A stretch of DNA of 64,000 nt, from the NCBI GenBank assembly GCA_947372355.1, contig CANBTI010000004.1, positions 1 through 64,000 of the forward strand. The letters run 5' to 3'. Under the pieces are notes generated by a model. It did not search any database and had not been told where the DNA came from. It worked only from the letters and a program-made list of their open reading frames with translations. The translations under genes were made by a program, and so were the position numbers. Positions 14,707 through 61,897 of this stretch are shown piece by piece; within the stretch, counting starts at the first letter, position 1; each line of letters opens with the position of its first letter. The DNA comes from Bdellovibrionales bacterium. Lineage in GTDB: Bacteria; Bdellovibrionota; UBA1018; CAIMNF01.

Positions 14707-14780
14707 AAAAAAGCTCCTTAGATTGAGGCGTAGTTTAGCTGAATTGAGGTATATATTCAACAAAAGAGATTTAAATAGAA

Positions 14781-14817
14781 AAAACCCAGTAAAATCATTG
14801 ATCTTACTGGGTTTTTT
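14781..14817. terminator. bidirectional rho-independent terminator
   Basis: aaaacccagtaa-aatcattgatc-ttactgggtttttt, between typA and the downstream gene. Confidence 0.8.
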
Positions 14818-14847
14818 CTAATTTTTTCGAGAGTTAAAGATCGGTAA

Positions 14848-20592: not shown

Positions 20593-20628
20593 TGATGAAA
20601 GTTATCACACGTGATAATTGTTATACTA

Positions 20629-21108
20629 ATGAAAAGCTTACAAGAAACATACGCACCCAATAGTATCTGTTTTGGATGTGGACCAGCCAATGACAGGGGG
20701 CTGAGAATCCGTTCATTCGCAGTGAGTCCGACTGAAGCGCATGCGGAATTTGCGCCAGAAAAATATCAGGAAGCATTTCCAGGAATGGTAAATGGTGGAA
20801 TCATTGGAGCTCTGCTCGATTGCCATTCCAACTGGACAGCGTGTTACGCATTAATGAAACAAGCTAATTTAAGTGAACCACCTTGCACGGTGACCGCTGA
20901 TTTTCATGTAAAGTTAAAAGCTCCCACACCCTCAAACCAAAAAATAATTTTAAAAGCGCGAGCTGTTGAATTAAAAGAGGATCGTGCGAAGATTGAAGCA
21001 GAACTTTATACATTACAATCGGATGGAACTGAAAAGTTATGTGCTACTTGCAGTGGAACATTTGTGGCTGTGAAGCCTGGGCATCCGGCTTATCATCGGT
21101 GGTCATGA
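20629..21108 (+). CDS. PaaI-like hotdog-fold thioesterase
   Basis: CFGCGPANDRGLRIRSF, PGMVNGGIIGALLDCHSNWTA. Confidence 0.8.
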   Translation: MKSLQETYAPNSICFGCGPANDRGLRIRSFAVSPTEAHAEFAPEKYQEAFPGMVNGGIIGALLDCHSNWTACYALMKQANLSEPPCTVTADFHVKLKAPTPSNQKIILKARAVELKEDRAKIEAELYTLQSDGTEKLCATCSGTFVAVKPGHPAYHRWS

Positions 21109-21109
21109 T

Positions 21110-21240
21110 CCAAGGTACGAAGTGCCAGAGTGCGAGTGGAAAAATTCAAAGTAATAGAGTGGTGAGTTCATTCGCCGGCTGAGTAGGACTCAGCAAACGA
21201 ATGAACTCACCACATAATCCAGCTCGCAAGCGAGCTTTTT
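21110..21240. repeat. nested palindromic intergenic element, copy 1
   Basis: gtggtgagttcattcg (21159-21174) is perfectly complementary to cgaatgaactcaccac (21198-21213). These enclose the core hairpin gctgagt-agg-actcagc. Left flank ccaaggtacgaagtgccagagtgcgag; right end gctcgcaagcgagcttttt. Confidence 0.85.
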
Positions 21241-21251
21241 GAAGGGGCAGC

Positions 21252-22019
21252 ATGAAAATATTTAGTTGGAACGTAAATGGGTATCGAGCAATTTGTGGTA
21301 AGGGCTTTGATCAGTGGTTTGCTGATATTGATGCCGATGTGATTGGTCTTCAAGAAGTGAAAGCTCATGAAGAAGCTGTGAACCCAAAACTTCTGGAGCA
21401 TAAGGGCTATCAACGTTTTTGGCATGCAGCAAAAAAACCAGGATATAGTGGAACCGCATTTTGGACCCGCATTGAACCCTTATCTTATCAAACCTTGGGC
21501 ATTCCAAAATTCGATGATGAGGGACGCGCCCAGATCTTAGAATTTAAAGATTATTATGTAATGAATTGTTACTTCCCTAACTCTCAAGATGAACGCGCAC
21601 GTTTGCCCTATAAATTGGAATTCAATGATGCCATTTTAAAGTTTTGTAAGGCAGCACATAAAAAAGGAAAGAATGTGATCGTGCAGGGTGATTTCAATGT
21701 TGCTCATACCGAGATTGATATTAAGAACGCTAAATCCAATCAAGATTCTCCGGGCTTTTATATTGAAGAACGCAATTGGATGAGTGATTTTTTAGGAAAA
21801 GGCGGCATGAAAGATGAATTTCGTGCGCGTCATCCGGGTGAAACTGGTTTGTACACTTGGTGGAGTTACCGCGCTAATGCCAGAGCAAATAATGTGGGTT
21901 GGCGTTTGGATTATCACATCACTAGTCCTGATCTCACCGATCGCATTAAAAATATTGATCATCAAAGAAATGTCGTTGGATCTGATCATTGCCCTGTGTG
22001 GATTGAGTTAAAAAAGTAA
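21252..22019 (+). CDS. exodeoxyribonuclease III family protein
   Basis: MKIFSWNVNGYRA, DVIGLQEVKAH, VQGDFNVAHTEIDIKNAK, GLYTWWSYR, GSDHCPVWIEL. Confidence 0.93.
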   Translation: MKIFSWNVNGYRAICGKGFDQWFADIDADVIGLQEVKAHEEAVNPKLLEHKGYQRFWHAAKKPGYSGTAFWTRIEPLSYQTLGIPKFDDEGRAQILEFKDYYVMNCYFPNSQDERARLPYKLEFNDAILKFCKAAHKKGKNVIVQGDFNVAHTEIDIKNAKSNQDSPGFYIEERNWMSDFLGKGGMKDEFRARHPGETGLYTWWSYRANARANNVGWRLDYHITSPDLTDRIKNIDHQRNVVGSDHCPVWIELKK

Positions 22020-60197: not shown

Positions 60198-61778
60198 ATG
60201 ATGACACGCGAATCAAAATTGATTGTCTTTGTTGCTGTTCTCGCTTCATTGCTCGAGATCATTGACACTTCAATTGTGAACGTGGCCTTGCCTAGTATGA
60301 TGGGTAATCTGGGAGCAACTCTTGAAGATATTTCGATGGTGATTACGGGTTACGCGATTGCAAATGCGATCGTACTTCCCGTTTCTGCTTGGTTAGGTGC
60401 ACGGATCGGACGTCGTAAATATTATCTCGGTTGTATCATTGCATTTACGATTACTTCTGTAGCCTGTGGATTTGCACCAAACTTATATACGTTGATTGTA
60501 TTTCGTATTTTGCAAGGGCTGGCGGGTGGAGCTCTTTTGCCCACCTCACAAACTTTGATTTACGAACAATTTCCTCGTGAAAAAGCTGGATTAGCAGGAG
60601 CGATTTTTGGAATGAGTGTGATGGTTGGTCCGGCTCTTGGTCCGGTGATGGGTGGGTATCTCACTGATCAGTTTGGTTGGCGTTCGATTTTTAATGTGAA
60701 TCTTCCACTCGGAATGCTCGCCTTATTTGTAGGGATGATGGTGATTAAAAATCCACCCTTCAATAACCACGCTGCCGATCAACCTAAACCTGCACTGGAT
60801 AAATTAGGATTGTTTTTGCTGGTCGTAGGTATTGGTTGCCTTCAGTATTTTTTAGAACGTGGCGAATCCGATGATTGGTTTTCCTCTCGTGGGATCACGG
60901 CTACATTTTTTATCGCAGCAATCTGTTTACCCATGTTTGTTTGGTGGGAACTTAAAATTAAAAATCCGATCATCAATATTCGATTGTTTAAGGATTCAGC
61001 TGTTCAAAATGGAACGGCGATGATGGCGCTCCTTGGTTTTTTTCTCTACGGAGTCGTGTTCTTGTTGCCTGTGTTTTTAGGTCGAACTTTCCATTATGAT
61101 GCAACTCAGGTGGGTGCTTTTTTTATTCCAGGATCTTTGCTCACAATGGCGATGATGCCTGTGGTGGGAAAACTCATGCAAGCGGGTAAAAATCCTAAAA
61201 CTTTAATTTTCTTTGGATTCACCTGTGTTGAACTTTGTTTATATTTGATGACCCGTTTTTCGCCTCTTTCTCCGAGTGGCGAGATTTTGAGAATGTTGTA
61301 CATGCGTGGATTAGCGATGGCCTTTTTGTTTGTTCCCATTAATTCTTCCATTCTTTCTCAATATCAGGGAATTAATATGGGACAAGTGGCGGGGATGATG
61401 AATCTGTTTCGTCAAATAGGTGGAAGTATCGGGATTGCTTTGGTGGCAACCTTACTCAATGTTCGTGGGCATCAAAACTATGCCGATTTACAAAGTAAAG
61501 TAACGGCACTCAATCCTCAAGCCAGCCAATTTGCGGGTCAGTTGCAGGGAAGTTTAGGGGCAAAATTACCGGAAACGATTGGCATGGGAACGTCAGTCAC
61601 CAGTCCCAATACTGCGGCCACTCAAATTCTTTACCTCAAGGTACAAAATCAGGTATTTATGATGAGCTTTTTACAACTCGTCACGATCATCATGATGATT
61701 GTGGCTTTGTTCTTAATTCCTTGGTTCCGTTTGAAATTGAAGCGCGGTGGCGCAACTCAAGTAGTGGATGCGCATTGA
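60198..61778 (+). CDS. DHA2-type MFS drug transporter (EmrB/QacA family)
   Basis: LEIIDTSIVNVALPSMMGNLGA, SAWLGARIGRRKYYLG, GMSVMVGPALGPVMGGYLTD. Confidence 0.95.
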   Translation: MMTRESKLIVFVAVLASLLEIIDTSIVNVALPSMMGNLGATLEDISMVITGYAIANAIVLPVSAWLGARIGRRKYYLGCIIAFTITSVACGFAPNLYTLIVFRILQGLAGGALLPTSQTLIYEQFPREKAGLAGAIFGMSVMVGPALGPVMGGYLTDQFGWRSIFNVNLPLGMLALFVGMMVIKNPPFNNHAADQPKPALDKLGLFLLVVGIGCLQYFLERGESDDWFSSRGITATFFIAAICLPMFVWWELKIKNPIINIRLFKDSAVQNGTAMMALLGFFLYGVVFLLPVFLGRTFHYDATQVGAFFIPGSLLTMAMMPVVGKLMQAGKNPKTLIFFGFTCVELCLYLMTRFSPLSPSGEILRMLYMRGLAMAFLFVPINSSILSQYQGINMGQVAGMMNLFRQIGGSIGIALVATLLNVRGHQNYADLQSKVTALNPQASQFAGQLQGSLGAKLPETIGMGTSVTSPNTAATQILYLKVQNQVFMMSFLQLVTIIMMIVALFLIPWFRLKLKRGGATQVVDAH

Positions 61779-61785
61779 TCATTTC

Positions 61786-61897
61786 CCAAGGCACGAAGTG
61801 CCAGAGGTGCGAGCTGGATTAAGCGAGTTAATTTCACCGGCTGAGCAGAGCTCAGCAATTGAAATTAACTCGCAACTCCGGCACTTGCGTGCCTTGG
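61786..61897. repeat. nested palindromic intergenic element, copy 2
   Basis: gcgagttaatttca (61823-61836) is perfectly complementary to tgaaattaactcgc (61860-61873). Core hairpin gctgagc-aga-gctcagc. Outer arms ccaaggcacgaagtgccagaggtgcgag and ctcgcaactccggcacttgcgtgccttgg are near-complementary. Confidence 0.88.

Follow-up and report, generated by a model that had tools for sequence, protein, structure and literature searches.

The window analysed here, a 64,000-nucleotide stretch of contig CANBTI010000004.1 from a Bdellovibrionales bacterium, contains two nested palindromes with a common core, one at about 21110-21241 (copy 1) and the other at 61786-61897 (copy 2). This raises the question as to what kind of element has left them there, and how their arms have remained complementary. 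A first-pass annotation, made from the sequence of the window, proposed that a constant core and constant tips were combined with unrelated but always paired arms, and suggested selection on structure and/or a copying mechanism that makes fresh inverted arms. In our analysis, both palindromes probably represent a non-autonomous mobile element, about 100-150 bp long, that works like a REPIN/BIME or MITE and would have entered nine intergenic sites during the history of this lineage.

Copy 2 occupies the space between an MFS efflux gene, with its stop codon at 61778, and the following gene's -35 box. Its left tip hairpin (ggcac-GAA-gtgcc, 61790-61802), 11 nt past the stop codon, is followed by the left arm of the central stem (GCGAGTTAATTTCA, 61823-61836), the left side (CCG) of a 3x3 internal loop (61837-61839; the family consensus is about NCG opposite AAW), the core stem GCTGAGC-AGA-GCTCAGC (61840-61856), which is the most conserved part of the family, the right arm (TGAAATTAACTCGC, 61860-61873) and the right tip hairpin (ggcac-TTGC-gtgcc, 61880-61893). 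Copy 1, which is flanked by genes at 20611-21108 and 21252-22019, comprises a left tip hairpin 5 nt past the stop codon (ggtac-GAA-gtgcc, 21114-21126), a central nested hairpin (21159-21213) with 16-bp arms, a 3x3 loop CCG/AAA and the core GCTGAGT-AGG-ACTCAGC, and a right tip hairpin (AGCTCGCAAGCGAGCT) that is followed by a T run (21221-21240, plus strand). In both copies, therefore, a 7-bp core stem with a 3-nt loop is joined through the 3x3 internal loop to a perfect arm stem of 14-16 bp.

Shuffled sequences contain nothing comparable to these structures. Two occurrences of the core pattern CCGGCTGAG-N5-CTCAGC were found in the window, as against none in 100 shuffles, and a nested-palindrome scan scored both copies at 20 out of 20 as compared to a best value of 17 among 60 dinucleotide-preserving shuffles of the window. 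The fold of copy 2 is approximately 10 standard deviations better than that of its own shuffles in both the RNA (-69.3 kcal/mol) and the DNA (-43) form. The common core of the two nested palindromes is confirmed, as are the replacement of T-A (copy 1) by C-G (copy 2) at the seventh core pair and the mutual complementarity of the outer ends of copy 2, each of which bears a small tip hairpin. The right tip hairpin of copy 1 with its T run looks like an intrinsic terminator and went unreported in the consensus terminator scan; copy 2 has neither a T run nor a terminator call. A separate 25-bp palindrome in the window (14773-14823, 92% complementary, AAATAGAAAAAACCCAGTAAAATCA...) is situated between two minus-strand genes and bounded on either side by A/T runs; it resembles an ordinary bidirectional terminator, with a core that differs from that of the element family.

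A pattern search of the genome revealed five perfect cores and several relatives with one or two mismatches, and a covariance search of this Bdellovibrionota genome (2.73 Mb) then placed 11 copies at nine sites, all of them intergenic: two sites on contig 4, two adjacent copies at a single site on each of contigs 22 and 23, and one copy each on contigs 11, 37, 77, 80 and 119. A covariance model of the central hairpin (R1) found these 11 distinct places, and a better model (R2) recovered these 11 with no additional match up to E = 10. The training set of R2 consisted of seven copies; the four that were left out (contigs 37, 77 and 119, and the first of the two on contig 22) were recovered with E-values of about 1e-5 to 1e-10, which represents an independent check. 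The family thus contains nine copies besides the two in the window, and the arms, which the first-pass annotation expected to be variable and paired, are nearly perfect in all but one; neither an absence of further copies nor a set of copies with unpaired arms, either of which would have counted against the first-pass annotation, was thus observed. Since the assembly, probably a metagenomic one, is 93% complete and divided into 125 contigs, repeats at contig ends may be missing. The adjacent copies on contig 23 (L124/L123) and contig 22 (L130/L133) are divergent from each other, pointing either to more than one insertion event per site or to a local duplication whose products have since diverged. 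Tandem repeats of parts of the element also occur in two copies, with GACTGGGCGAAGCTATTTGTAATATGCGAATAA present twice on contig 37 (L131) and CAAGTTCAGTTCGCATGCTCTAGTGA twice around a tip hairpin on contig 77 (L132), as expected of slippage or recombination at palindromes.

Outside this genome the family appears to be absent. R1 revealed no copy in 57 relatives and matched only the genome of origin among 369 genomes of the phylum, in searches run with stricter filters by which weak matches can be lost; with R2, neither the 11 congeners (best E 0.66) nor the L041 genome yielded a credible copy. Searches of plasmids and phages did not return any copies either. The best named relatives of the MFS gene in the window belong to the Bdellovibrionaceae and Pseudobdellovibrionaceae.

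All copies share a core of the form GCYGAGC-N3-GCTCRGC or a paired variant thereof (GCTGTGC/GCACAGC or GCTGAGT/ACTCAGC), an internal loop between core and arm with 3 (+/-1) nt per side, mostly NCG opposite AAW, and arms that usually start with GCGA. The tip hairpins, of 5-7 bp, lie at a fixed distance outside the arms; both are clear in copy 2 and in the copies designated contig-22b and contig-23b, and one is weak or missing in the other copies. The tips are not constant, as had been claimed, since their stems vary across the family and yet remain paired (GGCAC/GTGCC, AGCTC/GAGCT, AGCCC/GGGCT, GGCTGAC/GTCAGCC and GGGTGGC/GCCACCC). A common outermost closing stem was considered and rejected: pairs such as ACTAGAG/CTCTAGT and ACGGTCCGA/TCGGACCGT are found in single copies, and the flanks of a copy pair over a mean of 6.5 bases as against 6.7 when flanks are swapped between copies.

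The claim that the arms are unrelated does not hold. The copy 1 arm (GGTGAGTTCATT-CG) and the copy 2 arm (GCGAGTTAATTTCA) can be aligned, with one gap when the former is taken as GGTGAGTTCATTCG, and intermediates are found among the other copies. The arms of copy 2 and of contig 80 (GCGAGTTCATTTCA) differ by one pair, and those of contig 23b (GCGAACTGAATTCG) and contig 77 (GCGAACTGAACTTG) are near each other in sequence. Judged from these alignments, the arms are diverged homologues that differ by accumulated paired changes, and fresh arms therefore need not be invented.

In order to read the corresponding sites in related species, a chimeric protein query was used to find the flanking genes in congeners, and the junctions were then inspected. 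At the site of copy 1, the flanking genes in 10 congeners are separated by 2-20 bp or covered by a single continuous match, and at the contig-37 site they lie within 43 bp of each other or overlap in eight. The two sites that hold paired copies here are reduced to about 10 bp in G007 (contig 23) and to a short spacer in G007 and G003 (contig 22), while the copy 2 site reads GATGCGCATTGAT-TCCGGAATTGG-TTGACA in L041, with the element absent. The relatives are too diverged for a clear reading at the sites on contigs 11, 77, 80 and 119. Empty counterparts are thus present at five of the nine sites, and the elements at these five are best read as insertions gained in this lineage. The empty sites show a mobile insertion, but unrelated arms, the premise for a mechanism by which fresh inverted arms are made, proved to be wrong. 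A clear target-site duplication was not seen at junctions where the relatives are too far diverged, and the low number of copies, most of them quite diverged, does not point to very recent movement. For the copy 2 site alone, a small palindrome in L041 (TTCC/GGAA) was suggestive as an insertion target, an idea that was not retained. The L041 record is titled Nitrosovibrio sp. Nv4, probably a mislabel, since no MFS gene matches this Bdellovibrionota window more closely than the one in L041 (80%), and neighbouring sequence is also common to both.

The sites themselves have a feature in common, in that all nine lie directly behind a stop codon, with 2, 4, 5, 8, 10, 11, 11, 13 and 18 nt separating the stop codon from the nearest hairpin or arm. 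Four are between convergent genes and five between genes on the same strand, with none between divergent genes. REPs within 15 nt of a stop codon in Escherichia coli have been reported to stall ribosomes and lower translation (PMC12306157), and a similar effect on translation of the upstream gene would be the most natural expectation. The hairpins may act in a REP-like manner at mRNA 3' ends, through ribosome stalling at the stop codon, slower 3' decay or the ending of transcription.

Preservation of the fold is strongly supported by covariation. In a gap-free alignment of seven copies (A4), 99.3% of cells are paired as compared to 72% in shuffles, 16 of 21 base pairs have changed on both sides as compared to seven, and the covariation score is 0.78 as compared to 0.19; none of 500 shuffles attained the observed pairing, double-change or covariation values, and the signal disappeared when the partner was shifted by one to three columns. 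Double changes are more frequent than single ones when close copies are compared, with one double transversion and no singles between copy 2 and contig 80, and five doubles and no singles between copy 2 and contig 23b. About seven uncompensated arm or core positions are present in five copies (contigs 11, 23, 37, 77 and 119), nearly all of them G-T or A-C depending on the strand that is read, and within one element they agree on one strand. Such positions are what wobble tolerance in one folded strand would leave, in numbers too small to distinguish selection from template-switch correction. The exception to the general pattern is the contig-22a copy, in which the arm stem is interrupted.

How this pairing is kept bears on the mobile-element explanation without competing with it. 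The arms may be kept perfect mainly by a DNA process, either replication-fork template switching or hairpin-templated correction, by which one arm is copied onto the other and paired double changes arise in one step. The doubles without singles between close copies fit this proposal, and a template-switch mechanism has been described for RNA hairpins (PMC8794818). However, the uncompensated positions persist and are nearly all tolerable to the fold, the same counts could come from selection alone, and the copies compared are paralogues rather than ancestor and descendant, so that we regard a predominant role for such a process as possible but doubtful. Template switching or hairpin-templated correction is a possible form of upkeep that the data do not separate from selection on the folded strand, and pairing may be renewed by selection on the fold, by arm-to-arm correction, or by both.

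A structured RNA family, either a 3' UTR element or a small RNA, would yield compensatory changes through selection on the RNA fold and would make mobility secondary. The strong covariation, the location of every copy downstream of a stop codon and the confinement of almost all uncompensated positions to the G-T/A-C type on one strand per element are all consistent with this explanation. Nevertheless, it seems unlikely, given that no congener possesses an orthologous copy, that the orientation of the element relative to the upstream gene is mixed, and that G-T pairs are rare in comparison to Watson-Crick double changes. Furthermore, the whole fold is nearly palindromic, so that both strands fold, and no bacterial Rfam family was matched even at relaxed thresholds, where only sub-threshold microRNA matches typical of hairpins appeared. 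Ordinary bidirectional terminators, alike by chance or convergence, would suit sites behind stop codons, four of them between convergent genes, and a hairpin followed by a T run stands at the end of copy 1 and of the contig-23b copy. Convergence of this kind is already contradicted by the sequence homology among the copies, which share a core and alignable arms and reach covariance-model E-values down to 1e-15; with only a few bases present in relatives at several of the same sites, and with copy 2 lacking a T run and a terminator call, we consider it highly improbable. The mobile-element explanation is the one that we prefer.

The element resembles REPINs and BIMEs in being short, intergenic, non-autonomous and species-restricted, and, in copy 2 and the contig-22b and contig-23b copies, where both tip hairpins are clear, in consisting of two small inverted hairpins around a spacer that itself pairs. 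Compensatory change in such paired spacers is likewise shared, having been reported as common in the REPIN spacer stem (PMC3116915). The conserved 3x3 internal loop between core and arm may be compared to the conserved mismatch bulge of E. coli REP stems, which is read by the transposase (PMC8266576), and many E. coli REPs also lie close behind stop codons (PMC12306157). As with REPs, multiple copies of an extragenic palindrome occur in one genome, albeit only 11, all intergenic, rather than hundreds. In contrast to REPINs and BIMEs, the conserved part is the apical core and not the ends, the arms are longer (14-16 bp), and no copy lies beside a Y1 transposase gene or shows a link to a RAYT. 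A GTAG-type tetranucleotide 5' of the palindrome is absent beside the central and tip hairpins of all 11 copies, where only loose GAG or GAAG is found. Lacking both this tag and a RAYT neighbour, which are defining features of REPs, the element is not filed as a REP.

With MITEs, the element shares a length of about 100-150 bp, a non-coding and palindromic nature, multiple copies and empty sites in relatives (at five sites). Its ends, however, are diverged hairpins rather than a conserved TIR, no clear target-site duplication was seen at the diverged junctions, and no parent insertion sequence with the same ends was found in the genome; as a parent with shared ends is expected of a MITE, the element is not filed there either. 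The repeats of TIRYTs (TIR-associated tyrosine transposases), which have no GTAG tag, are in some cases self-complementary and are linked to Y1 transposases in REP-less genomes (PMC3733652), are similar, whereas the Y1 genes here have neither flanking inverted repeats nor element copies. No description of small mobile palindromes in Bdellovibrionota was found in the literature searched.

The genome encodes four Y1 (HUH) transposases, of which one, on contig 65, scores just over the NCBIfam RAYT cut-off (80.6 vs 80) and three, paralogues of 190 residues, are weaker RAYT relatives. The flanks of all four genes were examined and contain neither the element nor inverted repeats. The neighbourhood of the Y1 genes was rejected as a source of the element, as related Y1 genes also occur in element-free congeners, and beside those genes only ordinary hairpins were found. 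An assembly-wide search for an autonomous partner with the tip end CCAAGGCACGAAGTGCC (up to three mismatches) returned only the elements and unrelated matches, with no recognisable transposon. The three paralogues (L141 1363-1938, L142 1366-1938 and L143 1360-1929, on contigs 69, 81 and 103) are 87-88% identical and have a conserved block just upstream (AATATGACATTGCCCCAA), which suggests that the promoter region accompanied them when they moved or were duplicated. As Y1 transposases act on folded single strands and read the bulges and loops of stems (PMC8266576), the leading candidate for the mover is a Y1 transposase that acts in trans.

The unit of such movement would be a long central hairpin, made up of the conserved core stem, the 3x3 internal loop and the variable arm stem, with one or two tip hairpins at a fixed distance, and the folded single strand may be what the transposase recognises and copies. 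The core and internal loop would constitute the recognition mark, while the arms need only pair. A more specific and rather speculative proposal, which we do not expect to hold, is that of a GTAG-less palindromic mobile element of Bdellovibrio-like bacteria whose hairpin intermediate renews one arm on the template of the other with every move, by which the arms would drift yet stay complementary and only the core and internal loop would be recognised.

Across this family the sequences have diverged widely but the fold has persisted, in a manner similar to REP and REPIN repeats of other bacteria. Since a clean set of copies and their empty sites are available in one genus, the family can be used to test how paired arms are maintained, and can tell double changes made in one step from selection that follows single changes. 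Furthermore, the position of the elements behind stop codons makes any effect on the expression of the upstream gene easy to test.
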